64,000 nucleotides of DNA from Deltaproteobacteria bacterium. Its GTDB lineage: Bacteria > Desulfobacterota_B > Binatia > UBA9968. The notes under the pieces were generated by a model. It was given only the letters and a program-made list of their open reading frames with translations, was not told the DNA's origin and did no database searches. The stretch lies in NCBI GenBank assembly GCA_005879255.1, contig VBKY01000035.1, positions 1-64,000 of the forward strand. Direction: 5' to 3'. This document shows positions 3,647 to 58,694 of the stretch, one piece after another; the first letter of the stretch is position 1; each line of letters opens with the position of its first letter. A program made the position numbers and the translations under genes.

Positions 3647-5014
3647 CTATTTCTTTTGCTTCGTATTTGTAACTGCGCTCGACGGCCGCTCGCCTGTGCC
3701 GGCATTGCCGGTTACTTCGTGGCCGCTCGCGCGTCCGGGAGCCGAATTCGCGCTAGAGTTACTTCCCGACAGAACGGAAGACGATTTCACCTCCGATTGC
3801 ACGGCTGAATTGGCTGGAACCGATGTTTCCGGGGCTGGAGATTTGAGAAAATAAAAACCACCCAAAACCAAAGCTAAGAGGGCAAACGCTACGATACCTG
3901 CTACTTTTAGGTTTAGCGGGTTGTGGCGCTGGTATAGGTCGTATTCGCCATAATCTTTGATAATACTTTTTAGCTGGCGATCGATCTCGCCTTGTTTTGT
4001 CAAGTTTGTGACGTTTTCCTCAGCCGGCTTAGGCTGTTGCGCTTCGAGGGAGGAAATGATTTCGGTTTGCCTAACTTTGGCCGATACTTCCTCAGGCATC
4101 GCGAAGTCGCTCCGCGCCACTTCACGCAACGTGGGTGTCAGCGCCGGAGAAACTGTTGCAATTTTATGTTCGGAGGCTTTCTGCGTCGCAGGCTTTGGTG
4201 CTTTTCGCGGCGCGGACAAATTCGGCGAGCCGGCAAAATCGCCGTAGTTATGAATCAGATCGTCGAGTAGACGCTGATTGAAATTTGAGTTTGCCGCAGG
4301 GGTGGTTTTCTTTCCACGGGTCTCATCTTGGGGACGCTCAGCCAAGGTTGCATTTGTGGCGCCTTGATCACTTGTTTTTGTTACGACGTTTCGCGTTGAT
4401 GGCGGTAGTAGATCTGCTTTCTCAACGATTTGAGGTACTTCAGCCGTGGCAGCAGGGACGAGTTCCTCGTCCGTCTCGGTCAGTGCCGTGGATCGGAGCA
4501 CGGCGGCGTTTGCTTCGGCGGCCGGACTTGCTTCCAGTTGTAATAATGGGCTCGGGAGTGCTTTCATACTCTCCTGATCGGAACTGACTGTAATCGCTGC
4601 TGCGCTTTCACGCGCGGCATTCAATTGGTCGATATAAATGGCGAAGCGATGTGCACGGACTCTGATAAGCTGGACCAGCTTGTCCGCTGCGGCCAACGCA
4701 TGGAGCGTTGGGTACTTTTCCAAGCTGTCGGCATCAGCCAGGTCGAAGTTTTCATCCGGAATTGCCTCGATCGTCCGAATCACATCAGTTAGCGCCTGGC
4801 CCATGACCGCCAGGCCAGTCAACTTCAACTGCAAGAGGGAAAGCTCTCGAATCAAGTTCTCTGCCTTGGCTTGCGCACGACTCACGTCTTCGACAGAAAA
4901 ATCGTCGAGCCGCTGTTGTAGTCCTTGGATAGAGTTAAGCACCTTGCCAAACCCACCAAGTTGTGGCGCGGCAAGATTCGCGGGCACGGTTTCTTCTTTC
5001 TGAGCTGGGAGCAT
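3647..5014 (-). CDS. Single-pass membrane protein with cytoplasmic coiled-coil and long disordered linker
   Basis: About 455 aa from the ATG at 5014. An in-frame TTG at 5071 would add 19 residues, but it lies just inside the sigma-54 type promoter and lacks a ribosome site. The N-terminal ~150 residues are helical (FGKVLNSIQGLQQRLDDF). A long Pro/Ala/Ser/Thr linker is interrupted by two related short motifs (LDDLIHNYGDF and LKSIIKDYGEYDLY). One membrane helix near residue 380 (VAGIVAFALLALVLGGFYFL) is followed by a Ser-rich tail. It is the first gene after the promoter at 5076-5090. I recognise no family; a scaffold role in the envelope is a guess. Confidence 0.65.
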   Translation of the reverse strand: MLPAQKEETVPANLAAPQLGGFGKVLNSIQGLQQRLDDFSVEDVSRAQAKAENLIRELSLLQLKLTGLAVMGQALTDVIRTIEAIPDENFDLADADSLEKYPTLHALAAADKLVQLIRVRAHRFAIYIDQLNAARESAAAITVSSDQESMKALPSPLLQLEASPAAEANAAVLRSTALTETDEELVPAATAEVPQIVEKADLLPPSTRNVVTKTSDQGATNATLAERPQDETRGKKTTPAANSNFNQRLLDDLIHNYGDFAGSPNLSAPRKAPKPATQKASEHKIATVSPALTPTLREVARSDFAMPEEVSAKVRQTEIISSLEAQQPKPAEENVTNLTKQGEIDRQLKSIIKDYGEYDLYQRHNPLNLKVAGIVAFALLALVLGGFYFLKSPAPETSVPANSAVQSEVKSSSVLSGSNSSANSAPGRASGHEVTGNAGTGERPSSAVTNTKQKK

Positions 5015-8925: not shown

Positions 8926-11301
8926 TTGATCGGACGAAAAATTAAAGTATTACTGCTGGTTTTCCCCTTGCTGGCCATCGGCTGTGTGCTGTTGGACGAT
9001 AGTGCGCCAAAGAAACCTGCCACTACAGGATTAATCGCCACTCCGCCGTCTTATTACAGTACCGCAAAGGCTAGGTATCTCGGTGGCAAATATAAGGAAA
9101 ACTTGGACCGGATGGTCGAGCGGATCGTGCGCAATCCGAAGACGTCCACGCTCCAGTTTGCCAACAATATTTCATCGGTCGGTGGTATAGGCTTCTTTAC
9201 TCATTCCGCCGCCAAGACCGCTGATGAGCGCTACCTTGAAGTCGTTCTGGCAACTCCGGAGACCTTCGAATCCAAGGGAGAGCTGAGTGACAAGGTACAG
9301 CGTCTCTTTGCTCAATATGGGGTGGAGGTATTAGGGATTCTGAGCGGCGATAGCGATATCTATCAAGATAAGGAGCTCAGCGGATACGGCTTGAATCTCG
9401 CGTGGCGCAATATCCTCGCAGAACCGGCAGGCAATCGCGTCACGATTGCGCGGGCGATTATCTACTTGCCAAAGGATCGGGTTCGCAATTTTATTCGGCA
9501 TGAGCTTAACCAAAACGATTTGCTCGGAAATGCCGTAATTTTTTCCGTTGAAGAAGATGGGCCACTGACACTGGTTTCCTATCAGCCGCAGGAAGCCCGG
9601 CCGGATGTCCGCCCGGCGATCCGTGAAGATAATTTAACCTCTGTGCCGGCCCCCTCCGCCTCAAACGCAACTCCGGCCCCATCGTCGCCGGCAGAAGCGA
9701 AAGAGTCGAGTCAAAAACGTGAACCAACAGCTGAACCCGGCAAGAAGGAAGCGACCGGCATTAGCCAACCAACAAACTCAACGATTGTAGAGGTGAAACG
9801 CCCAGAAGCTAAAGTAGAATCTACGAAGCCGGTCGCGCCGGCGAAGAACACTATTCCATCCGCGGCCAAGTCAGATGTTAAGGCGGTTGACGCGCAGGAA
9901 GAGTTGGCGCCCGTGGCGGCGGCACGCGCCGAGCCGGCTGTAGTAAGCAAACGCACGGAAAACACAGTTCCAGGAGCGCCGGTAAATGAATCAAAGCCTG
10001 AACCAATTGCGCTCGCGCCAATACCGCCAGTACCATCCTCGCCACGAGTAGAAGAGGTAATACCACCCCCAGCTGAGGCCACGTCTGCAGCCCCCCTGGC
10101 CGAGAAAAAAGCTCCTGCGGTTTCGCCAACACCAGCGGCAAGAGTAGATAGCGATGCGCCGAGCAAGAAAAGTGAAGAGACGCGAGAAGTAACAGCCGCA
10201 GCACCAACGCGAACGCCGGTTGTTGCCGTGAAAAAGAATGAAGCGGACGGGCAACGAGTTATCGAAGCGTCCAAGCCGGCATCTGCCGCGACACCGGGAA
10301 AAACCGCGACCGAGGCAAAAAAACCCGAGAGTGTGTCAAATGAGAAGCAGCGGGAAGCCGCCGTGGCGAAAATACCGGCCGAAACATCTTCGGTCGCTCA
10401 GCAGAAGGAAGTGAAAAAGAACTCTGAACCGCCAACAATTGTGGCAAAGGCTGAATCGCCGGTGCCATTGACTGCGCCCCGCCGAGAGATCACGTCGCCG
10501 ACGTTGACAGAGAAATTTCTCGAAGCAAAGACACGCGAGGCGACCAAGACCGAGGTGCCAGTGGTGGTGAAATCCACCGAACCGCTGCGTCCGGTCGAAG
10601 CAAAGGCAGCGACTCCCGCGGCGCCAATCGCAAAGTCGGAAGCGCAGCCGCAAGAGGTAAAATCATCGACACCGGCAACGAAAGGACCCAAGGAAAATAT
10701 TCCTGGTGTGAAAGCTCGAGAGTCGGAACCGGCCCAGACAGCAAAAGTACTAATCGACAATAAAACCTCAGCTGGCGAAACTCCCAAAAAAATTACACCT
10801 CCGGCCCCGGTTGCAGTCAAAACCGCGGTGGCGGAAAAAGTGAAGCCGATCCCTGCGACTGGCGCCGCGAAAGTTGACACGCCGGTACTTGAAGCCAAGT
10901 CAGCACCCGCGGCCGTCTCAGAGCCACAGCAGCGGGACACCACGGCTGAAAAATCAGCGGGCGAACAGATCGCGTTGCTGAGAAAGCCGGCTGAAATAAT
11001 TCCCGATAAAAAGCCGCCGGCCCGGCCTGCGCCGAAAACGTTGGAGGGTTTTATCATTCAGCTTGGCTTCAACGACAAAGAGAAAGCCCGCCGCTGGGCA
11101 GAAACGATGGAGCAACGCGGCTATGCAGTTTCAGTCACGGAAGCTGGCGCAGAGGGAGCTCTTCGAGTGAGACTCGGAAACTTTGCTGTACGGGACGACG
11201 CGGAACGGCAACTGCGGACATTCAAACAAGAAGGACTGAGCGGTATCATTATCAATCTGCCGCAGGGTTTTCGGCCGGAAGCCCGGTCATCGATTCCGTG
11301 A
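8926..11301 (+). CDS. Lipoprotein with very long Pro/Ala/Lys linker and C-terminal SPOR domain
   Basis: About 791 aa from the TTG at 8926, chosen because AGAGGTG at 8914-8920 is well spaced. The upstream GTG at 8875 would spoil the signal peptide. The lipoprotein signal MIGRKIKVLLLVFPLLAIGC ends in the acylated Cys. A globular region of about 190 residues follows. Then comes a low-complexity linker of about 450 residues made of Ala, Pro, Lys, Glu, Val and Thr, and a final SPOR domain (about 705-780; GFIIQLGFNDKEKARRW, LRVRLGNFAVRDDAERQL). SPOR binds denuded septal peptidoglycan, so the protein probably spans from membrane to wall at the division site. It diverges from the ATPase operon. Confidence 0.85.
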   Translation: MIGRKIKVLLLVFPLLAIGCVLLDDSAPKKPATTGLIATPPSYYSTAKARYLGGKYKENLDRMVERIVRNPKTSTLQFANNISSVGGIGFFTHSAAKTADERYLEVVLATPETFESKGELSDKVQRLFAQYGVEVLGILSGDSDIYQDKELSGYGLNLAWRNILAEPAGNRVTIARAIIYLPKDRVRNFIRHELNQNDLLGNAVIFSVEEDGPLTLVSYQPQEARPDVRPAIREDNLTSVPAPSASNATPAPSSPAEAKESSQKREPTAEPGKKEATGISQPTNSTIVEVKRPEAKVESTKPVAPAKNTIPSAAKSDVKAVDAQEELAPVAAARAEPAVVSKRTENTVPGAPVNESKPEPIALAPIPPVPSSPRVEEVIPPPAEATSAAPLAEKKAPAVSPTPAARVDSDAPSKKSEETREVTAAAPTRTPVVAVKKNEADGQRVIEASKPASAATPGKTATEAKKPESVSNEKQREAAVAKIPAETSSVAQQKEVKKNSEPPTIVAKAESPVPLTAPRREITSPTLTEKFLEAKTREATKTEVPVVVKSTEPLRPVEAKAATPAAPIAKSEAQPQEVKSSTPATKGPKENIPGVKARESEPAQTAKVLIDNKTSAGETPKKITPPAPVAVKTAVAEKVKPIPATGAAKVDTPVLEAKSAPAAVSEPQQRDTTAEKSAGEQIALLRKPAEIIPDKKPPARPAPKTLEGFIIQLGFNDKEKARRWAETMEQRGYAVSVTEAGAEGALRVRLGNFAVRDDAERQLRTFKQEGLSGIIINLPQGFRPEARSSIP

Positions 11302-11384
11302 TACAGGAATTACTTCTTCGTAACGATTCAGTTCTGAAGTGAAGGGGTAGGGCAATAGATAGATTCTCACGCCACCTGCGACGA

Positions 11385-12833
11385 TCACGCGCCACCTTTT
11401 AATTTTTCACGTAGAATTTCGTTCACTTTCTGTGGATTGGCCTTGCCATGAGTCGCCTTCATAATCTGGCCGACAAAAAAGCCAAAGACTTTTTCATTGC
11501 CTGACTTGTATTGCTCAACTTGTTTGGCGTTTGCCGCTAGGACCTTATCGATGGCGGACTCGATACTGCCGCTATCCGAGACTTGATCAAGCTCCTTTTC
11601 ACTGACAATTTGCTGTGGCGAGTGGCCTGAATCCAACAGCGCTTCAAAGACTGTCTTGGCAATTTTGCCGCTGATTTTACCCTGATCGATCAGTTGCACC
11701 ATCTCGGCCAATTGCTGCGCCGCTATCGGCCAGCTAGGGATATACAGTTGCTCGTCGAGTTTGCGTTCCTTTACGACCCGAAACAGGTCGCCAACGATCC
11801 AATTGCTGAGTGCCTTCGGATTCGTATGGGTTTTCACTGCTGATTCAAAATAATCAGCGATGTCCCTCCGGTTCGTGAGCAATTCGGCGTCGTACGCGGG
11901 AAGACTGTAATCGGACATGAATCGGGCTTTGCGCACGGCGGGAAGTTCGGGCAGCGTAGCGCTTATCTCAGTAATCAAGCGGTCGTCGATCAATAGTGGC
12001 AGCAGGTCTGGATCGGGAAAATAACGGTAATCATGCGCCGATTCTTTCGACCGCATGGAGCGGGTTTCTTGGCGGTTGTCATCCCACAGCCGGGTTTCCT
12101 GGATCAGCTTGCCGCCGTCCGATAGCACGTCGGTCTGTCGTTCGATTTCGTAGTCGAGCGCTTTCTCGACGGCTTTAAATGAGTTGAGATTCTTGATTTC
12201 GATCTTGGTTCCGAGGGTCTCGCTCGCGGCCCGACGGACCGAAACATTGGCGTCGCAGCGAAAGCTACCTTCCTCCATATTGCCATCGCAGATGCCGAGA
12301 TACCGGACAATTTGTCTCAGCGTCCGAAGATAAGCGCCGGCTTCTTCGCGCGTGCGGATATCGGGTTCACTAACGATTTCCAGAAGTGGCACCCCGGCGC
12401 GATTGAGATCGACGAGACTCGAGTCGCCGTGGGCGTCGTGAATATTCTTTCCCGCGTCTTCTTCCATGTGAATACGAGTCAGGCGAACGCGCTTTGGCGC
12501 CCCATTTACGTCCACTTCTATGTAACCGTTCGTGCAAATCGGGCGCTCATACTGGCTAATCTGATAGCCTTTGGGCAGATCCGGATAAAAATAGTTCTTG
12601 CGTGCAAGTATGCTCACGCGGGCGATGTCGCAGTAAGTGGCCAGTCCCGCCTTGATGGCAAACTCGACGACTTTCTTGTTCAAGACCGGCAACACGCCGG
12701 GGAACCCGGCGCATACCGGACAGGTGTTTTGGTTCGGCGCTTGGCCGAACTTTGTCGAGCAGCCGCAGAAGATTTTTGATGCGGTGAGCAGCTGTGCGTG
12801 GACCTCTAGACCTATGACCGGCTCGTACTTCAT
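11385..12833 (-). CDS. gatB: Aspartyl/glutamyl-tRNA(Asn/Gln) amidotransferase subunit B
   Basis: About 482 aa. GatB is the kinase and tRNA-binding subunit of GatCAB, which converts Glu-tRNA(Gln) and/or Asp-tRNA(Asn) to the amidated forms. The start is placed at [15 protein letters not shown], the conserved beginning of the family; the frame remains open upstream but those residues are not GatB-like. Characteristic segments are [30 protein letters not shown] and, near the end, [16 protein letters not shown] of the YqeY-like tail. It lies 52 bases after gatA in a gatC-gatA-gatB order. Confidence 0.97.
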
Positions 12834-47757: not shown

Positions 47758-48785
47758 TCAGATTTTTCTGAGTGTATTGATCAAGAGCCAGCAGAACATA
47801 GCAATCGCGGCCGATGCCGGGATCGTTAGAATCCACGCCCAGACGATCCGGCCGGCCACGTTCCAGCGCACGGAACGAATCCGTCTAGCGAGCCGACCCC
47901 GACGATGGCACCGGTAATCGTGTGTGTTGTCGACACGGGAATACCCCAGTGCGCTGCGCTGAAGAGCGTGATGGCTCCCGCCGCTTCCGCGGCGAAACCG
48001 CTCATGGGCCGCAATCGCGTGATTCTCGATCCCATGGTGTGAACGATGCGCCACCCGCCTGATAGAGTGCCCAGGCCAATCGCCGCGTGGGCGAGCAGGA
48101 CAATCCAGAAGGGAATTAACAGTTTTCCTGCAGCGTCGCTGACAAGATGACGATATTCGGGAACCGTGAACAGCGCTCCGGCGATGATCCCCATGGTTTT
48201 TTGCGCGTCGTTGGTGCCGTGGCCCAGGCTATAGGCCGCCGCCGAGATCAGTTGGCCGCGCCTGAAAAGATGATCCACGCTGGACGGCGTGGAATGCTTG
48301 AAGATATGGAGTATCGCCACCAGATTCAACATTCCCAAGACCATCCCGAGGAGGGGCGCCAGGACGATGAATATCAGTGTATTTACCCATCCGGCGGGAA
48401 TGATGATGCCCAAGCCGGCCTTAGCGATACCTGCGCCGGCATAGGCGCCGATGAGCGCGTGAGAAGAACTCGTCGGCAGACCGGCGTGCCAGGTGATCAG
48501 ATCCCAGGCGATCGCGCCGAGGAGTGCGGCAAGAATTACATAGGAATCGACCTGTTGTACGTCGAGAAGGCCGGTGCCGACGGTCTTGGCAACGGCGGTG
48601 CCAAAAGTAAAGGCCGCGATGAAATTCCAAAATGCCGCCCAAGTCACGCCTTGAAGCGGAGTCAAAACCCGCGTCGAAACCACAGTCGCGATCGAATTCG
48701 CGGCATCGTGAAAACCATTTACGTAATCGAAAACCAGCGCAATCGCGACAATTAGAACGGTCAAAACCAGAACCGGGTCAGCCAT
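47758..48785 (-). pseudogene. pit: Low-affinity inorganic phosphate transporter (Pit family), frameshifted near the C-terminus
   Basis: The main frame (48785 to about 47895) encodes ten or so membrane helices with the family signatures DYVNGFHDAANSIATVVS and SLGHGTNDAQKTMGI, ending VSTTHTITGAIVGVGS. The expected continuation ARRIRSVRWNVAGRIVWAW, and the last helix, is in another frame that ends at 47758. One missing G near 47893 (TCGCTA for TCGGCTA) accounts for the shift. It imports phosphate with cations. The adjacent DUF47 protein is its usual partner. Confidence 0.9.
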
Positions 48786-49404
48786 TTTTGATGACCACCC
48801 GCTGCAGCACGTCGGCGACGTCTTCCATGCGATCGGTGGTTTCCTCGAGCATCTCGTAGATCTCTTTCCAGCGAATCAAGTTGAACAAGTCGTCCTTGTG
48901 GTTGACGATATCCACGAGCGCTTCACGCAACAGAAGATCGCCGTTGTTCTCGATCGTATTGATTTCCTTTATGTGCTCGGTCACCAGACGAAAATTCTTC
49001 TTTTCCCGCAGGTTGGGCATAGCCATTTGGAGCTCGCTGGCGCCGCTGCGGATCAGATGAGCCATCTGCCGTGCCGTCTCCGTCGGCGCTTCGATGCGAA
49101 AAATGAGCATCCGTACAGCGGTCGCTTCGATCTTGTCCACGGTGTCATCCAGGGCGGATATGAGCCGCTCGACATCCTCGCTGTCCAGCGGGATAATCAG
49201 CGTGTGCATCAAAAGGTTCATCACTTCATGAACGATAAAATCGCCGCGATGCTCCAATTCCGTAATGCGAGCGACTTTGCTTTCCACCCGTTCGTAATGA
49301 TCGAACAGATCTTGTAGCGCTTCGGCGGCTTCGAGTACGTTGGCGCTGGCTTTCTCGAACCATTCGTAGAATTTCGTTTCCGCTGGCAAGAACTGAAATT
49401 TCAC
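48778..49404 (-). CDS. DUF47 family PhoU-like protein (Pit accessory)
   Basis: The protein has 208 aa from GTG 49404. All-helical with the family patterns FYEWFEKASANVLEAAEAL, TRITELEHRGDFI-like (ARITELEHRGDFIVHEV) and LDDTVDKIEATAVRM. The stop overlaps the pit start by 8 bases. DUF47 proteins regulate or stabilise Pit transporters and bind metals like PhoU. Confidence 0.92.
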   Translation of the reverse strand: MKFQFLPAETKFYEWFEKASANVLEAAEALQDLFDHYERVESKVARITELEHRGDFIVHEVMNLLMHTLIIPLDSEDVERLISALDDTVDKIEATAVRMLIFRIEAPTETARQMAHLIRSGASELQMAMPNLREKKNFRLVTEHIKEINTIENNGDLLLREALVDIVNHKDDLFNLIRWKEIYEMLEETTDRMEDVADVLQRVVIKNG

Positions 49405-49510: not shown

Positions 49511-51721
49511 TCAGGAAAGGAGTGCTTTAACCCGGCCGGCAATATCGTCGCGCACTTGGCGAAAAATGGCCAGGATCTGCTGTTCGTCTCCGACCGCCAG
49601 GGCGGGGTCGGCGAGCGACCAGTGAATGCGTTCGACCCGGTTTTCCAGCACCGGGCATTGTTCGTCGACTTCGCCGCACAGCGTGACAATCTGATCGAGG
49701 CTATGGAGGGGAACACTTTCCAATCCTTTTGAGCGTTGCGTCGTGATATCGTATGCCGTCTCTTGCTTGAAAAAAACGGCGAACGGATGAATCTCCTTCG
49801 GCGCGGTGCCGGCGCTGAAAATTCGATAATGGTTGGCAGCCAACTGACGCGCGAACCCCTCGGCCATCTGGCTGCGGCAGGAGTTTCCGGTGCACAGAAA
49901 CAAGATTGTCTTTTGGCTTGCTTCGGCCGGAACCCTGGGGAGCCGAACGCGCACCGTCGTCCCTTTATTCAACTGGCTTTCGAATTCTAATTCGGCCTTG
50001 TGTACCTGAGCGATATGCTTGACGATGGCCAGCCCTAGGCCCGTGCCGCCGAGATCGCGCGAGCGCGCCTTGTCGACGCGGTAAAAGCGCTCGGTTAGGC
50101 GGGGCAAGTCTTTTTCCGGAATGCCCGGTCCGGTATCGCTCACGGCGATCTCAATATCAGACGGGCCACCGTTCTGCAGTGGAGCGTGGACGGCAGTCAG
50201 CGTCACTTGGCCGCCGGCAGGCGCGTATTTGATGGCATTGTCGACAAGATTGATAAACAGCTGTTGCAGGCGGTCGAGATCGCCGATGAGTTTAGGGAGG
50301 TCCGGGGGGACACTGGAAGTAAGCTTGATTTTCTTTCTATTGGCTTGATCCCAAAACACTTCCAGGACCCGCTGAATCAAGTGGCCCGCGTCAATGGGTT
50401 GAAATGAGAGTTGTATCTTGCCGGACTCCAGATCCGATAAGGTTAACAAATCTTCAGTCAAGCGGCTGAGCCGCTCAGCGTGGCGATCGATGATCGTGAG
50501 AAACTGCCGGCTGTCGCCGGGATTGGCCGGCGGGGTATGCAGCAAGGTTTCTACATAGCCGCGTATCGCGGTTAACGGAGTGCGAAGCTCGTGAGAGACA
50601 TTGGCCACGAAATCGGACCGCATGGTTTCAAAACGTTTGATATCGGTGATGTCATGAAAAACTAAAATGGAGCCCGAAGAACTACCCCGGTTGTCTTTCA
50701 GACTTACGGCGTTCACTCGAAACCAACGCTCGTTGTCGAGTTCCACTTCTTTTGAGTATTTTTGACTGACAAAATCGAATCTGAGCACTTCCTCAAGTAT
50801 TTTGTGAATTTCCGGATGGCGGGAAATTTCAAGCACCGAGGCGCCATGAATGTCTTGTTGCTCCGGCACGTAAAACATCGCCTTCGCTCTGTCGTTGATT
50901 ACGAGCACCTGGCCCTTTGGATCCAACACCAGGACACCCTCGATCATGCAGCGCAGAATCGAATCGGCCTTTTCCTTTTCATCGATGATTTGTCGCAGGT
51001 TATGGCGGATCCTGGTGCTCATGTCGTTGAGATGCTGTTCGAGCAGGGCAATTTCATCGCCTCCCCGGTTCGGGAAAAAATTCTGCGGATAGGAGCCCCG
51101 AGCCACTTGCGTCGAGAACTGCACCAGGCGGCGAAAACGCCGGCTCAGATATTGAGAGAACAACCACGCGAATATCAACCCGGCGGCTGAGGCGAGCGCC
51201 AGTCCGGCAGCCAGCGTACGCCGCCACGCGAATATCACGCTCTCGACATCCTTGAGCGGCGTGGCCACCCGCACGATGCGTTCTTTGCCGGCGCCGGATT
51301 GATAGAAAGCGCGATAGAGCATTTCGTAGTGAACCGTGGTGCTATAGCGCAGCGCCGTGCCGGAGCCGTGGCGCAGCGCTTCGACCACTTCGGGTCGGCC
51401 GGCGTGGTTCTCCATTTTTGCTGAAGCCTCGGAGGAGTCACCGAGAACGCTGCCGTCGCGCGCGATGACGGTGATTCGTGAGCCGAGCCCGCCCGCGAGC
51501 TGGCGACAGACATTGTCCAAGGCCTCGCCGACCACATCGAATGGAACAACCCGCCCAAGGAGGTGGGCCTCTTGCTCCATGCGCGCGCTCAGAGATTGGA
51601 TATAAAACTCGCGTAGCGTCGCGCTGGAGGTGTAGTACAGGCTCGCGAAGAGGATGGCGATGACGGCGAGGTAGGAGAGAAAAACCTTTGCGACGAGGCT
51701 ATTGCTCCAGAGCCTTCTCAT
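49511..51721 (-). CDS. phoR: PhoR-type sensor histidine kinase fused to a thioredoxin-type arsenate reductase domain
   Basis: The protein has 736 aa. Membrane helices at about 13-32 and 170-190 enclose a periplasmic domain. HAMP (about 190-240), PAS (about 250-345), HisKA with H377 (VSHELRTPL) and HATPase ([24 protein letters not shown]) follow, as in PhoR. Immediately after, residues 603-736 form a low-molecular-weight phosphatase-fold ArsC. The CX5R loop is C610-TGNSC-R616, and the redox cysteines are C682 and C689 ([10 protein letters not shown]), matching C10, C82 and C89 of S. aureus ArsC. No start codon or stop lies at the junction. The 5' end overlaps phoB by 23 bases. I infer that it couples phosphate signalling to arsenate or phosphatase chemistry. 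Confidence 0.93.
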
Positions 51722-52418
51722 CGAACTTATAGCCGACTCCTCGAAGGGTCAGGATCCATCTGGGATGACTATCGTCCTTTTCGATGGCTTTTCGCAAGCG
51801 GCGAATGTGAACGTCGACGGTGCGGGGCGTCACAAAAGTCTCGCCGCCCCAGACGCGATCGAGGAGTTGGTCGCGGCTGAGCACCCGGTTGGGATTTTGA
51901 ACCAAAAAGCGCAGAAGCTCGAATTCTTTGAGCGTCAGTTTGATATTTTTGCCGCGCGCGAAAACTTCGTAGGTAGTGAAATCAATCTTTAGCCCGCCTC
52001 TGTCATAGGCTGGCAGTGGTTCTGTCTCGGCGGCGCTGGCGGCGCGCCTGAGGATGGCTCGAACTCGGGCGACTAACTCTCTGGGGCTGAACGGCTTTGT
52101 CAAATAATCGTCAGCGCCCATCTCAAGACCGAGGACTCGATCGGTCTCGCCCGCTTTGGCGGTGAGCATGAGAATCGGTAGCTTTGCGGTGTCACTGCGG
52201 TCCCTTAGAATCCGGCAAAGCTCGATACCCGACAGACCCGGCAACATCAGATCCAATATGAGCAGGTTGGGTTTATCGCGCTGCACGATCTTCAGCGCCT
52301 GTTCACCGTCTTCAGCTTCGAGGACTTTGAAATGCTCTTGGGCCAGATTGTACTGGACGAGCTTCCGAATGTCGGGCTCGTCTTCAACCACCAGAATCTT
52401 TTGTCCACTGTTGATCAT
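51699..52418 (-). CDS. phoB: Phosphate regulon response regulator PhoB
   Basis: The protein has 239 aa. The receiver has an acidic pair (VVEDEPD), phosphoacceptor in [11 protein letters not shown], and [12 protein letters not shown]. The C-terminal winged helix is OmpR-type ([27 protein letters not shown]). It is phosphorylated by the PhoR fusion protein and should bind the TTAAC repeats near pstS. Confidence 0.95.
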
Positions 52419-52421
52419 ATA

Positions 52422-53108
52422 CTAAACCGAAGGCGGCAGATCTTTCATATGGCGAATGCTTTTGCCCTTGACCATAAAAATCACCATTTCGGCGATGTTG
52501 GTAGCGTGGTCGGCGATCCGTTCCAAGTACTTCGACACGGAAGCGATTTTCGTGGCCCGGCTAATGGTTTGGGTGTTTTCTAGCATAAAAGTCAGGGTTT
52601 CCCGAAAAATCTGCGCGTTTAGCTGGTCGACTTCGTCGTCGTCCTTGCAAACCTTCAAAGCCAGTTCGGTATCCTCCCGCACAAACGCATCCAGGCTTTC
52701 GCGAATCATGCGCTGAGAGATACGCGCCATTCTCGGGATATCGATGTAGGGTTTGAGTTGGGGTTCCTGATTGAGTTCCAGCGCCCGTTCGCAGATGTTG
52801 ACCGCCATGTCGCCGATCCGTTCCAGGTCGGTGGTAATCTTAAGTCCTGTGGTGATAAAGCGCAGATCCCGACCGGCGGGTTGATGGAGTGCCAATAACT
52901 TAATACAGAGATCGTCGATGTCGACATCGAGCCGGTTGACTTCGTGGTCGCGCTCAATGATGATTTGCGCCAGTTCGGAATCGCGGTCGACTAAAGTTTT
53001 TACCGCTTTCTGGATCTGGTCTTCAACGAGGCCGCCCATGTAAAGAATCTCCTCGCGGAGTTTTTTCAACTGTTCTTCGTATCGCTTATCGGTATGTTGA
53101 CTCTCCAT
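52422..53108 (-). CDS. phoU: Phosphate signalling protein PhoU
   Basis: About 228 aa. The start ATG at 53108 has GGAGGAG just upstream, while the TTG at 53129 lacks a site. Two repeats of a three-helix unit carry the metal-binding motifs (DLERIGDMAVNI and YLERIADHATNIAEM). PhoU links the Pst transporter to PhoR inhibition. Confidence 0.95.
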   Translation of the reverse strand: MESQHTDKRYEEQLKKLREEILYMGGLVEDQIQKAVKTLVDRDSELAQIIIERDHEVNRLDVDIDDLCIKLLALHQPAGRDLRFITTGLKITTDLERIGDMAVNICERALELNQEPQLKPYIDIPRMARISQRMIRESLDAFVREDTELALKVCKDDDEVDQLNAQIFRETLTFMLENTQTISRATKIASVSKYLERIADHATNIAEMVIFMVKGKSIRHMKDLPPSV

Positions 53109-53121
53109 GGGCTCCTCCAAC

Positions 53122-54021
53122 TTATCCAAAGCGGCCGGTGATGTAATCTTCCGTCTGCCGCTTTTCCGGCGCGGTAAACAGTTTTCCGGTCTCGCCGACT
53201 TCGATCAATTCGCCCAGGTAGAAGAACGCCGTTCGATCGGCACAGCGGGCTGCTTGTTGCATGTTGTGAGTCACGATGACGATTGTGAACGTGTCCTTCA
53301 ACTCATGAATCAGCTCCTCGATTTTCGCCGTGGAAATCGGATCTAAAGCCGAACAGGGCTCATCCATAAGGAGCACTTCAGGTTCCACTGCCAGAGCCCG
53401 CGCAATGCACAGACGTTGTTGTTGTCCGCCGGACAGATCAGTGGCGCTCTTGTTGAGATTGTCTTTGACCTCGTCCCACAAGGCGGCGCGACGCAAGCTT
53501 TTCTCGGCCACCTCGTCCAGAAGATTTCGGTTGTTTATCCCGACGATGCGCAAACCGTAAACGACGTTCTCATAAATGCTCTTGGGAAAGGGATTCCATT
53601 TTTGGAAGATCATTCCCACTCGACGGCGCAGATTGATTACATCCGTCGATGGATCATAGATATCCTTACTGTCGAGCTTGATGCTGCCGGTTAGGCGGGT
53701 ATTCAACACCAGATCGTTCATCCGATTAAGGCAGCGTAAGAGCGTTGTCTTGCCGCAGCCGGAGGGGCCGATAAAAGCCGTCGCCTTTTTTTCCGGGATT
53801 TCAACGTTGATCGATTTAAGCGCGTGATTCGATCCGTAGTAAAAGTCGACATTTTCGACTTCGATGATCGATCTTTCTTCTTGCAATTGCGCCGCAGTAG
53901 CTTGACCGGATGGATTCACTGATAAGGGGCTCGACGTTTCGGGCACGTCAATCTTATGTTGCAAGTCCATCATACCTCCGAGGGGTTCGGTATTCCAGCC
54001 GTTCGTTCCGAGCGCTACCAT
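53122..54021 (-). CDS. pstB: Phosphate ABC transporter ATP-binding protein PstB
   Basis: The protein has 299 aa. The first ~45 residues are a non-conserved extension. The core has Walker [12 protein letters not shown]-loop [11 protein letters not shown], signature [15 protein letters not shown], Walker [13 protein letters not shown] and [12 protein letters not shown] before 54021 supports the longest form. The start overlaps the end of pstA by 7 bases. Confidence 0.96.
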
Positions 54022-54932
54022 TTGATCCTCTTTCTAAAGCGATAACGAAAATAGATCGCGATACCGTTCATGAGCAAAGTCATGACCATCAGGATCAGAC
54101 CCGTGGCCGCCGCGTTCAAATGAAATTCTTGTTGCGGTCGCGAAACCCAATTGAACATCTGAATCGGCATCACTGAAAACGGCGACCATAGCCAGTCAAA
54201 GGACACAAAGGGAAACTCGCCCTTGATCGGCGGGTCAGGCAGGAAGGCGATGAAGGTCAATGCGCCGATAGTGATGAGCGGCGCGGTTTCGCCGATGGCA
54301 CGGGACAACGAAATGATCACGCCGGTCAAGATGCCTCCCATGGAGTAGGGCAAGACATGGTCCCGCGTCGTTTGCCATTTAGTGGCGCCCAGGGCGTACG
54401 CCGCTTCGCGCATGCTCGAAGGGACCGCCCGGATGGATTCTCGGGTTGCTACAATAACGATCGGCAGGATTAGCAGCGCCAAAGTCAGACCGGCCGAAAG
54501 TATGCTTTGACCGAACTTGAATTGATAGACGAACAAGCCTAAGGCCATCAGACCGTAGACGATGGAAGGAACGCCGGCGAGATTGGCGATGTTAATTTCA
54601 ATCAGGCCGGTGAACCAATTCTTGGGCGCGTACTCCTCAAGATAAACACCGGCGCCGACGCCCATGGGAATTGCCGTCAATGCCGTTACGATCATAACGA
54701 GCGTAGTGCCTACCCAAGCAGATAAAATCCCCGCTTGCGCCGCAAAGCGCGACGGAAACGATACAAAAAACTGAAAGGAGATTCGCCCCAAGCCGTCGGT
54801 TGAAAGATCAAAGAGCAATGCGGCCAGCGTGATCATCCCAACAAAAGTGGAGATGAGACCGATAACGGCAAAAATCGTGTCAAACCTTCTGTTGTTCGAC
54901 AGTCTCTTTTCTATATTTTCGGGTTCGACCAT
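54015..54932 (-). CDS. pstA: Phosphate ABC transporter permease PstA
   Basis: The protein has 305 aa. Six membrane helices carry the family motifs [17 protein letters not shown], the [20 protein letters not shown] coupling helix and [11 protein letters not shown]. It pairs with PstC, whose stop is one base upstream of this start. Confidence 0.96.
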
Positions 54933-54933
54933 T

Positions 54934-55884
54934 CTAGTATATCTCCCTGTAGCGCTTTCTCAGTAGATATCCGGCGATGTTGAAGACCAGTGTCATACAC
55001 ATGAGCGTCAAACCGGCGGCGAAAATGCTTTGGTAGGCGACACTGCCGTGCGGGAGGTCTCCCAGGCTGACTTGAACTATATAGGCGGTAATCGTTGCCG
55101 CGCCTTCCATCGGGTTCAGAGTCAAATTCGGCTGGGTGCCGGCGGCGACGGCAACGACCATCGTTTCTCCCACGGCCCGCGAGAAACCAAGAACGTACGC
55201 CGACGCGATTCCGGAAAAGGCTGAAGGAATGAGAACGCGAATAGCGGTCTGAAATCGTGTCGCCCCCATCGCATACGAACCCTCCCGAATATGTACTGGA
55301 ACGGCTTTCATGGCATCTTCACTGAGAGAGCTAACGTAGGGAATGATCATAATGCCGATCACGATCCCGGCGCTGAGCATGTTGAAACCGGGCAAATCCG
55401 GAAGAATTTGCTGCAACAACGGAGTAATGAACAGCAGTGCAAAGTAACCGAATACAACAGTTGGGACCGCGCTCAGGAGCTCCAGTACGGGTTTTAGTAT
55501 CTCCCTCACCCGAGCGTTAGCGTATTCGCTCAGATAAATCGCAATCGTTGTCCCTAATGGTAAGGCAACCAACAACGCAATACCTGAGGTGACCAACGTT
55601 CCGGTCACCAGAGGCATGATACCGTAACGGGGGTTCTCGAACAGAACAGTCCACTGAGTGTCGGTTAGAAAGTCGACGAGGGAAATATTTCGAAAAAAAT
55701 GCCACGATTCCGCCAATAAAACCCAGACGATGCCGCACGTGATGGCAATGGACGAGGCAGCACATAGAAACATCAAAAATTCGATGAAGCGCTCGCGAAC
55801 TTTTTGCACAGTCAGTCCGACGGGAATCGTTCTTATGCGCGCTTGCGCGGTGAGATAACCGGCGTCTGCGTGATCGGTTTCCAA
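54934..55884 (-). CDS. pstC: Phosphate ABC transporter permease PstC
   Basis: The protein has 316 aa from TTG 55884 (AAAGGAAA upstream). Six helices with LLSAVPTVVFGYFALLF, the coupling helix EGSYAMGATRFQTAIRVLIP and SRAVGETMVVAVAAG. It lies 77 bases after pstS, with a stem-loop between. Confidence 0.96.
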   Translation of the reverse strand: METDHADAGYLTAQARIRTIPVGLTVQKVRERFIEFLMFLCAASSIAITCGIVWVLLAESWHFFRNISLVDFLTDTQWTVLFENPRYGIMPLVTGTLVTSGIALLVALPLGTTIAIYLSEYANARVREILKPVLELLSAVPTVVFGYFALLFITPLLQQILPDLPGFNMLSAGIVIGIMIIPYVSSLSEDAMKAVPVHIREGSYAMGATRFQTAIRVLIPSAFSGIASAYVLGFSRAVGETMVVAVAAGTQPNLTLNPMEGAATITAYIVQVSLGDLPHGSVAYQSIFAAGLTLMCMTLVFNIAGYLLRKRYREIY

Positions 55885-55961: not shown

Positions 55962-56951
55962 TTAGTACTTGGCTTCGCGTTTGAGCAGGTCGTCGATTTT
56001 TATACCGACTTCAGGTTCGCCGCCGAACACCGTTCCAACTTTGCCTTTTTTCACATGCTCCAAGGCGACCGTGTAAGCACTTTGCGGCAGCGCTACGTAC
56101 TTTACCTGCTTGACCAAGCTGGGCGCGTTTTTGAGATAAAATTCCACGTACTCTCTGACTTCGGGCCGGCTGTCGAGGCTCTTCTTGCTCACATAGATGA
56201 AGATCGGACGAGAGAGCGGTTGATAGCTGCCGTCTTCGACGGTTTTGGCCGAGGGCAATACCGGGCCTTTGCCGGCGTCGATGGGAGCCGCTTTCAGTTT
56301 CTTCTGGTTCTCGATGTAATAGGCGAAACCGAAGTAGCCCAAGGCATTGCGGTCGTTGGCGATACCCTGAACGAGCACGTTATCGTCTTCGCTGGCGGTA
56401 AAGTCGCCGCGGCTGGATTTGGCCTTGCCGACGATTGCTTCGGTGAAGTAATCAAAAGTTCCGGAATCAGCGCCGGGACCAAAAAGCTTCAAAGGACTGT
56501 TCGGCCATTCGGATCGGACCTGGTTCCAGGTCGTTACTTTTCCTTGAGCCGCCGGTTCCCACATTTTCTTCAGGTCTGGTACGGTTAAAGCCTTCACCCA
56601 ATCATTTTTTGGATTTACCATGACCGTAAGCGCGTCATACGCGATCGGCAGCTCGATGTATTGAACGCTGGATTGCTTACAGGTTTCCATTTCCTGCTTG
56701 AGAATCGGTCGAGACGCGTCGCTAATATCCGTCTCACCGCGGCAGAATTTTTTGAATCCACCACCCGTACCTGCAATACCGACGGTCACTTTAACCGCGC
56801 CTTTCTTGGCCTTTTGAAATTCTTCGGAGACCGCTTCCGTAATGGGAAAGACAGTGCTCGAACCATCAATCTGAATGATCTGTGCCTTTGCTGTCTTCGG
56901 CACTACTCCCAGCAGGACAATGGCGGCCAGTGCTACGAGTGTCTTTTTCAT
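55962..56951 (-). CDS. pstS: Phosphate-binding periplasmic protein PstS
   Basis: The protein has 329 aa. Signal peptide ([20 protein letters not shown]), then the phosphate-binding motifs [30 protein letters not shown] and [21 protein letters not shown] precedes the ATG. First gene of the pstSCAB-phoU-phoB-phoR row. Confidence 0.96.
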
Positions 56952-57131
56952 GATTTTTCTCCTTTTGTTTTCGTTTAACGATCTATTGTTACAAACATAT
57001 TAAGCGGAGATTAAGGTTCCGTGAATGACGGCACGGACTTCGACAACGGGACTTAGTCTTCCGAAAAATGACCGGCGTCGGCTCCATTTGATAGTTCGGC
57101 GTGACAATGGAGACCAGGCATGACTGTGATG

Positions 57132-57212
57132 TTAACGTGAAGTTAAGATATGATTAACTAAAGCGAATTGCGCAGTTTACGAGAGCGCCAAAACGCTTAA
57201 CACAAATTTAAC
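57132..57212. promoter_or_regulatory. Pho-box-like TTAAC direct repeats at 11-bp period
   Basis: TTAAC, TTAAG and TTAAC start at 57132, 57143 and 57154, exactly 11 bases apart. A second pair TTAAC/TTAAC starts at 57197 and 57208, again 11 apart. Direct repeats with this period are the form of PhoB/PhoP binding sites. They lie between divergent pstS and the thymidylate-kinase-like pair, so they could control both. Confidence 0.65.
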
Positions 57213-57306: not shown

Positions 57307-58041
57307 ATGGCTGGCGGAATGAAAATGTACGGTAAGCACCGCTTTCCAGGACGCTTGTTTATTGTCGAAGGGATCGACGGCTCCGGCAAAAGCACGCAAC
57401 TTTCACTGCTGCACAAATGGCTGGACTCGGAAGGGTACGTAGTTTACTCGAGCGAGTGGAATTCCTCGCCTTTGGTCCACGATGTCACGAAGCGGGGAAA
57501 AAAGAAAAAAATGCTCACCCCGATGACGTTCAGTTTGATCCATGCGACGGATTTCGCCGATCGCACTGAGCATCACATCATTCCGCCGTTGAAAGCAGGC
57601 GCCGTGGTCTTGGCCGATCGCTATATTTACACCGCCTTCGCCCGGGACGTTGTCAGAGGCGTCAGTCCCAAATGGGTACGGGACCTTTACGCATTCGCGG
57701 TCAAGCCGACCATCGGCTTTTATTTCCGCACGCCGCTCGACGTCGCCATGAAACGAATTTTGGGCGGGCGCGATGCGATCAAGTATTACGAGGCGGGGAT
57801 GGATCTGGATCTGAGCGACGACCTGGAAGAAAGTTTTCGACTCTTTCAAGGTCGAATAATCGATCAGTATGAAGCCATGATCGATGAGTTCGGTTTGGTC
57901 ACGATCGACGCCACCCGCTCCATCGAGGATCAACAAGCCGAGGTGCGCCGCATCGTTTCTGAGGCACTTGGCGGTACCAAAAAAACAAAGGTTAGGAAAT
58001 GGCTCGATTTAACTTCTTTGGCGAAGGGCTCCCGGATATAG
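57307..58041 (+). CDS. Thymidylate-kinase-like P-loop kinase (first of a tandem pair)
   Basis: The protein has 244 aa. Walker A is G22-IDGSGK-S29. The DR motif appears as LADRYIYTAF, as in thymidylate kinases. The lid and the nucleotide-base region differ from housekeeping Tmk, and a KKKK patch is inserted after residue 56. It overlaps the second kinase by 43 bases. One more A in the A7 run at 57979-57985 would give a stop at 57993 just before it, so the last ~18 residues are doubtful. The genomic position suggests a role in phosphate or polyphosphate metabolism rather than dTTP supply. Confidence 0.85.
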   Translation: MAGGMKMYGKHRFPGRLFIVEGIDGSGKSTQLSLLHKWLDSEGYVVYSSEWNSSPLVHDVTKRGKKKKMLTPMTFSLIHATDFADRTEHHIIPPLKAGAVVLADRYIYTAFARDVVRGVSPKWVRDLYAFAVKPTIGFYFRTPLDVAMKRILGGRDAIKYYEAGMDLDLSDDLEESFRLFQGRIIDQYEAMIDEFGLVTIDATRSIEDQQAEVRRIVSEALGGTKKTKVRKWLDLTSLAKGSRI

Positions 58042-58694
58042 ATCTCGATGAGCTGAAGGGAAGGCTGATCGTCCTCGAAGGGACCGACGGCGTCGGCCGT
58101 TCAACGCATATCGGTTTGCTCAAGCAATGGCTCGAGAATCACGGCCATGCGGTCCTCGACACCGGTATGACTCGTTCGGCATTGGCGGGCAAGAGGCTCA
58201 AGCAAGCGAAAGAAGGCCATACGCTGGGCGGCATTACGATGAGCTTATTCTACGCGACGGATTTTGCCGATCGGCTAGAGCAAGAGATTATTCCCGCACT
58301 GCGCGCCGGGTTCATTGTCTTGACCGACCGCTATATCTACTCACTCATGGCGCGGGCGATCGTGCGAGGCTCCGATCCCGACTGGCTCAGCGAAGTTTAC
58401 GGCTTCGCGCTGCGGCCCGATGCGGTCTTTTATCTACGCCTCGGCATCGACGATCTCGTCACGCGGGTCTTACAGAGCACGGGCTTCGACTACTGGGAGT
58501 CGGGCCGAGATCTGCACATGGGCGAGGACATGTATGATAGCTTCGTGCGTTATCAGAAATGGCTACTGGCTGAATTTGACAAGATGGTCGAAACATATGG
58601 ATTCGAAATCGTGGACGCTTCGGGGACAGTCGAAGAGGTCTTTGAAAATTTGCGCGAACGTGTCGACCGAGTGGTCGCCCGCAACGGCTACTAG
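57999..58694 (+). CDS. Thymidylate-kinase-like protein with Walker A Lys changed to Arg
   Basis: The protein has 231 aa. Same fold as the preceding protein (LIVLEGTDGVGRSTHIGLL, LTDRYIYSLMARAIVRG), but the P-loop lysine is R34 (GTDGVGRS). Loss of this lysine usually cripples phosphoryl transfer, so it may be a regulatory or scaffolding partner of the first kinase. AAAGG lies upstream of the ATG. It converges with the CHAD gene, overlapping by 4 bases. Confidence 0.85.
   Translation: MARFNFFGEGLPDIDLDELKGRLIVLEGTDGVGRSTHIGLLKQWLENHGHAVLDTGMTRSALAGKRLKQAKEGHTLGGITMSLFYATDFADRLEQEIIPALRAGFIVLTDRYIYSLMARAIVRGSDPDWLSEVYGFALRPDAVFYLRLGIDDLVTRVLQSTGFDYWESGRDLHMGEDMYDSFVRYQKWLLAEFDKMVETYGFEIVDASGTVEEVFENLRERVDRVVARNGY

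Follow-up and report, generated by a model that had tools for sequence, protein, structure and literature searches.

The window, that is, the whole 64,000-nucleotide stretch of DNA analysed here, contains the gene row pstSCAB-phoU-phoB-phoR::arsC (Table 1). The last gene of the row encodes, in one frame, a PhoR-type sensor kinase followed by an ArsC-type domain, and beyond it lie genes for a Pit phosphate transporter and its partner. The Pit frame (47758-48785, minus strand) ends abnormally and its C-terminal part appears to be continued in another frame, probably as a result of a sequence error. Two adjacent thymidylate-kinase-like genes (57307-58694, plus strand) are also present; in some relatives such genes likewise adjoin the locus.

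Table 1 Features of the phoR::arsC region in the window.
Feature	Position	Strand	Remarks
phoR::arsC fusion gene, 736 aa	49511..51721	-	ATG start; 23-nt overlap with phoB
Kinase part, residues 1-596: sCache_like, HAMP, PAS, HisKA (H377), HATPase_c	49934..51721	-	
Linker, residues 597-603	49913..49933	-	Sequence variable, length nearly fixed
ArsC domain, residues 604-736	49514..49912	-	C610-X5-R616, C682, C689, D705
Local mismatch patch, residues 650-657, relative to P0001	49751..49774	-	Probable sequence error
phoB-like response regulator	51699..52418	-	Named by reading the sequence; homologues in relatives
phoU	52422..53129	-	Named by reading the sequence
pstB	53122..54021	-	Named by reading the sequence
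pstA	54015..54932	-	Named by reading the sequence
pstC	54934..55884	-	Named by reading the sequence
pstS	55962..56951	-	Named by reading the sequence
TAACA-type direct repeats of 11 bp resembling a Pho box, upstream of pstS	57130..57156	-	Motif chosen post hoc
DUF47/PhoU-like partner of Pit transporter	48778..49404	-	PF01865
Pit phosphate transporter	47826..48785	-	PF01384
ArsC-like paralogue, stand-alone, lacking R16 and C82	60187..60627	-	LMWPc protein; 8.5 kb from the fusion

Gene order and putative Pho control

The order phoU-phoB-phoR is common to the window and its relatives. Comparison of 25 regions showed recR-ebfC-dnaX 3' of phoR in 15, whether phoR is fused or not, and most of the remaining 10 regions end or were cut near phoR. 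In some regions the DUF47-Pit pair is located between phoR and recR-ebfC-dnaX.

Repeats of the form TAACA-N6-TAACA were identified upstream of pstS, on the gene strand, in nine regions (the window and eight genomes); in each region no more than 14 of 500 letter shuffles matched, the motif having been picked post hoc from matches to the E. coli-type Pho box. The E. coli-type consensus gave no standout upstream of pstS, as judged without shuffle comparison. The repeats suggest PhoB-type control of the gene row, in which case the reductase would be made under phosphate scarcity.

Domain structure of the fusion protein

Pfam searches identified sCache_like (residues 39-136), HAMP (188-239), PAS (261-360), HisKA (367-434) and HATPase_c (480-596) domains in the kinase half, in agreement with an earlier note on this DNA, which had credited the kinase with all PhoR modules. 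A HisKA and HATPase_c core combined with HAMP, PAS and a sCache-like domain is the architecture of PhoR, and the phospho-acceptor histidine is H377, in the motif HELRTP. The protein resembles the PhoR/PnpS kinases in its sCache-HAMP-PAS-HisKA-HATPase order and in its position beside phoB, phoU and pstSCAB, but differs from them in its extra C-terminal ArsC domain and in scoring below the curated NCBIfam cut-offs (306.7 of 334.2 bits for TIGR02966 and 379.1 of 400 bits for PnpS). The designation PhoR-type is therefore based on context and domain order and not on a model.

The Pfam LMWPc/ArsC domain covers residues 606-735 of the 736, and the NCBIfam model arsC_pI258 matches residues 606-734 with an E-value of 8.6e-39. 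The closest solved structure to the C-terminal tail is that of Bacillus subtilis ArsC (PDB 1jl3; E 3.9e-33, residues 604-733), to which it aligns without gaps at a constant offset of +600, with C610, R616, C682 and C689 in register. The intact CX5R loop, both redox cysteines and the 600-residue offset are thus all where the earlier note had placed them. The P-loop and acid Asp found in low-molecular-weight protein tyrosine phosphatases are both present in the fused domain, D705 being presumably the general acid. Like the thioredoxin-coupled reductases of the pI258 and B. subtilis type, the domain has the CX5R loop, both redox cysteines and the acid Asp; unlike them it is not free-standing, and it scores below the TIGR02691 equivalog cut-off (132.7 of 174.3 bits), so that ArsC-type is likewise a label given by residues and alignment. 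This cut-off was passed in one of the 24 genomes searched, and the fused domain of genome G415 scores 179, above 174.3.

The window's TIGR02691 score is perhaps lowered by a local patch at residues 650-657, where all six differences from the nearest relative (P0001) in 503 shared residues are located. The patch is probably a local sequencing or assembly error in the window contig, a strain difference being a possible alternative; the catalytic residues of ArsC are untouched by it.

The earlier note had seen no start codon for ArsC at the junction. There is no in-frame ATG between residues 581 and 618 of the fusion; TTG584, GTG590, TTG607 and CTG609 are in frame, but a start at TTG607 would remove the first ArsC strand. 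In the AlphaFold model of the fusion (pLDDT 77, pTM 0.36) the packing of the domains is not reliably given, and in a structure search with this model the 50 matches listed included kinases and proteins related to them.

Conservation of the fusion

A database search with residues 560-736 at E ≤ 1e-3 yielded 635 proteins, and the analysis covers the 120 with the best matches. All 120 contain both the kinase and LMWPc domains, so that the architecture is present in at least 120 database proteins, many of them labelled plain PhoR by a source. The relatives are therefore not always two separate proteins, the outcome that the earlier note had named as fatal to a real fusion; the architecture for which it proposed a database search is present throughout this set. 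An assembly artefact joining two genes, as might be suspected from the error-like patches in the window (residues 650-657 and the Pit gene), is ruled out by the occurrence of both parts on one chain in these best 120 of 635 relatives and in the 13 genomes described below. Sequence comparison thus confirms a genuine PhoR-ArsC fusion, conserved among a set of related uncultured bacteria.

In the same best 120 of 635 sequences, the ATP-lid motif GTGLGLAI and the ArsC loop are both present in every case, and H377, C610, S614, C615, R616 and S617 are invariant, while C682 and C689 are each found in 118 and D705 in 119. The catalytic cysteine lies 51 residues from the GTGLGLAI motif in 91 sequences, 52 in 28 and 46 in one. 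By contrast, variability is greatest in residues 594-606, which include the linker (2.37 bits versus 0.49-1.47 in the other segments compared). One relative (P0002), with 92% identity in the searched region, is labelled 'Candidatus Binatia bacterium', and the source labels of other fused proteins are Deltaproteobacteria, Verrucomicrobiae, Methylomirabilota and Alphaproteobacteria.

The ArsC part is under purifying selection, with pairwise dN/dS values of 0.06-0.24 in eight pairs, although those from the four pairs with an ArsC dS above 1.6 are rough; for the kinase part dN/dS is 0.10-0.18 in the five pairs with a finite value.

Distribution of fused, relic, unfused and free-standing forms

A contig scan of named genomes gave, as the best match listed, a locus labelled Deltaproteobacterium (L001) in which PhoR is unfused. 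In this locus an arsC gene and an ACR3-type transporter gene (9874-11435, minus strand) are convergent to phoR. The 148 genomes of the class to which L001 belongs were searched, and PhoR was found at E ≤ 1e-150 in 24 of them. Reading of each locus revealed the fusion in 13 of the 24 (G405-G410, G412, G413, G415, G417, G418, G423 and G425). Genome G413 has two phoR::arsC copies; in G407 the contig ends inside the ArsC loop; and in G418 the fusion is on two contigs, the second of which opens with the ArsC half preceded by the same kinase tail. In a further genome (G416) the junction falls in an N gap, immediately beyond which ArsC begins to be readable, so that its state is hidden. In G406 (locus L191) the linker between kinase and ArsC contains an insert of about 36 residues (about 11150-11285, plus strand).

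In two of the 24 (G426 and G427) the kinase frame is open and a clear relic of ArsC comes after it. A third (G411) has a doubtful relic after the kinase, recognised by its position, a short NSCR motif and a match through stops to residue 620; as a clear relic it was rejected, since its tblastn E-value of 0.12 does not improve on chance-like values of 0.02 in G199, 0.035 in G353 and 0.10 in G364. Neither fusion nor relic was found at the seven remaining loci read (G001, G199, G353, G364, G414, G419 and G421).

Outside the 24, genome G420 encodes a free-standing ArsC with its own ATG and an intact site (locus L234, about 4550-4950, plus strand), at the syntenic place before recR, which groups with the fused domains (support 95/92). 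No PhoR-type kinase of the fusion kind was found in this 2.9-Mb genome, including the 12 kb read at the locus. The gene looks like a fused domain that has been set free; alternatively, PhoR may be missing through genome incompleteness, or an older unfused state may have persisted. In another lineage (locus L050, 344-2470, plus strand) arsC, phoB and phoR lie next to one another as three genes, so that the PhoR/ArsC association is paralleled there without a fusion.

At the loci from the named-genome scan, numbering at least 80, tblastn with ArsC gave a match in four, none of them in the kinase frame as judged by position, with open reading frames read at three loci. In a phylum search of 297 genomes, with at most 10 candidates scored per genome, none of the matches listed (39 genomes) starts before query position 49, so that the kinase side is left uncovered by them.

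Phylogeny of the kinase and ArsC parts

Of 45 stand-alone loci, 33 were included in the ArsC trees; the other 12, among them arsC genes beside ACR3, were removed by a motif filter. The fused ArsC domains lie on one side of a branch from these 33 (support 95/57, and 97/89 in a second tree). The kinase and ArsC distance matrices are correlated (r 0.58 over 40 fused rows; no value as high arose in 2000 permutations).

On the kinase tree the fusion state requires six changes, or four if three relic rows are scored as having had the fusion. A simple one-clade history, in which 42 fused and three relic rows (including G411) were held together, was rejected on this tree (p-AU 1.3e-10), the relic rows having been named after the sequences were seen. 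The fused state must therefore have been lost or transferred in places. Our reading is one old fusion followed by repeated loss, with transfer as a possible alternative history. The kinase and ArsC parts have sometimes been inherited separately: the kinases of G405 and G406 are sisters (100/99) but their ArsC parts are not, and the ArsC of G405 (L181) pairs with that of G423 (97/72). The silent-site divergence between G405 and G406 is far greater for ArsC (dS 1.06) than for the kinase (dS 0.37), a hint that the ArsC part may have been recombined or transferred.

So changeable a state, together with the clear relics in G426 and G427, is what would be expected of a neutral read-through fusion in which ArsC hitchhikes and its place on PhoR is without consequence. 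This appears decidedly improbable given the invariant or nearly invariant catalytic residues in the best 120 of 635 relatives, the low dN/dS of ArsC and the constrained kinase-to-cysteine spacing.

The window also contains a stand-alone ArsC-like paralogue, with a Ppx/GppA gene on one side and a gene of the histidine phosphatase family, then a CHAD gene, on the other. Copies from the window and nine related genomes were aligned by eye, that of G409 being the least sure; R16 and C82 are both absent from all 10 and the nucleophile is absent from some, so that the paralogue reads as catalytically dead. These copies form one clade (100/99), which joins the fused domains against the stand-alone ArsC (98/93, with long branches), and once they enter the tree the fused domains no longer form a group by themselves. 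The paralogue and the fused domain may share an ancestor.

Other arsenic genes

Five of the 13 fused genomes, and six of the 10 that lack an intact fusion, have a separate arsC sharing a contig with ACR3 (Fisher p 0.41); these assignments were made by hand with G416 left out, and the first count becomes six of 13 if the pair of G413 that is cut by a contig end is included. As this pattern is not significant, the fused ArsC does not clearly take the place of a normal ars operon, and the proposal that it does so was rejected.

Searches for other ArsC proteins (TIGR02691 at E ≤ 1e-8, second copies read; none of the Grx type over its cut-off) found no other ArsC with an intact site in seven of the 13 fused genomes (G405, G407, G409, G410, G412, G415 and G423). 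In five of these seven (G405, G409, G410, G412 and G415), whose completeness is not given, neither ACR3 nor ArsB was found; ArsP_1 matches are present but mostly partial. The missing ACR3 and ArsB, which leave no obvious outlet for the arsenite, and the lack of a significant arsC-ACR3 pattern argue against a simple detoxification reading.

Proposed function of the fusion

The best explanation, held with moderate confidence, is a bifunctional protein in which a PhoR-type kinase and a working thioredoxin-coupled ArsC are made together and located together without being obligatorily coupled. In its favour are the conserved catalytic residues and low dN/dS of ArsC, the correlated kinase and ArsC distances, the grouping of the fused domains, the gene row with its Pho-box-like repeats, the separate forms in G426, G427 and G420, and the seven fused genomes in which no other intact ArsC was found; the discordant kinase and ArsC relationships of G405 and G406 count against it. 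The N-terminal part would sense phosphate starvation as a membrane kinase, and the C-terminal part, joined to it by a short linker, would be a thioredoxin-coupled arsenate reductase. Because phoR::arsC follows pst-phoUB in one row, putatively read as one transcript, each rise of high-affinity phosphate uptake, when arsenate enters most easily, would lead to the reductase being made as well. The enzyme would be held at the membrane close to the transporter, a tethering that may be of benefit.

Redox cysteines of the C82/C89 type are required by thioredoxin-coupled reductases, and phosphatases of the LMWPc fold do not need resolving cysteines. The retention of C682 and C689 therefore favours reduction over phosphatase activity, the two functions that the earlier note had offered side by side. 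Since tyrosine phosphatases belong to the LMWPc fold, the domain could be imagined to strip phosphate from PhoB or from the kinase histidine and so reset the Pho response. We regard this as highly improbable in view of the resolving cysteines and of the genomes in which phoB and the kinase remain after the domain has decayed (G426 and G427); PhoR kinases, moreover, have a phosphatase activity of their own.

The kinase and ArsC appear able to work apart, as kinase frames persist beside relics in G426 and G427 (and doubtfully G411) and ArsC stands alone in G420. That either partner can be lost points to a pair of separable activities with joint synthesis and not to an obligate switch. A role of the domain in resetting PhoB, or in distinguishing arsenate from phosphate for the sensor, as the earlier note had proposed, is for the same reason unsupported so far.

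The near-fixed spacing of 51-52 residues exceeds what a tether needs and counts against the bifunctional explanation, leaving a signalling coupling to the kinase possible. ArsC turnover involves an arseno-adduct, a C82-C89 disulfide and movement of a loop, and this cycle might alter the adjoining ATPase domain, with PhoR thereby telling arsenate from phosphate or reading thiol state. The placement of ArsC directly after the ATPase domain, and a spacing kept in 119 of the best 120 sequences despite the most variable linker, are in keeping with such an input domain, but the outlasting of ArsC by the kinase frames, the linker insert in G406 and the ArsC without a kinase in G420 are not, and we consider it unlikely, although to be taken seriously. 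A built-in arsenate test, in which the ArsC cycle would report through the length-constrained linker and the nearby dead paralogue may be a partner or competitor, is speculative and rather unlikely; if true, the cell could separate real phosphate hunger from arsenate poisoning.

Relation to known systems and significance

In arsenic islands that combine pst, pho and ars genes, those for phosphate uptake and for arsenic stand side by side (PMC3834237), but as separate genes, and neither 'phoR' nor any 'fus' word occurs in the main text of that source. In Agrobacterium 5A, PhoR controls arsenite responses (PMC7565993); PhoR is tied to arsenic physiology there too, although through a regulatory link only, with no enzyme domain on PhoR mentioned in the parts of that source available to us. 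Nor is a PhoR-ArsC fusion described in the available parts of PMC2887360 and PMC8436480. The earlier note knew of no described case, and none was found in the open-access literature searched; as an architecture, however, the fusion was already present among the database proteins.

How cells keep arsenate and phosphate apart is an old question, arsenate being a poisonous mimic of phosphate that enters cells as such. Here, a domain resembling arsenate reductase rides on the protein that sets the strength of phosphate uptake. The fused, relic-bearing, unfused and free-standing forms are natural controls within one clade, so that co-expression, tethering and signalling can be separated by direct experiment. 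The finding suggests that control of uptake and clean-up of the poison are made from one gene.
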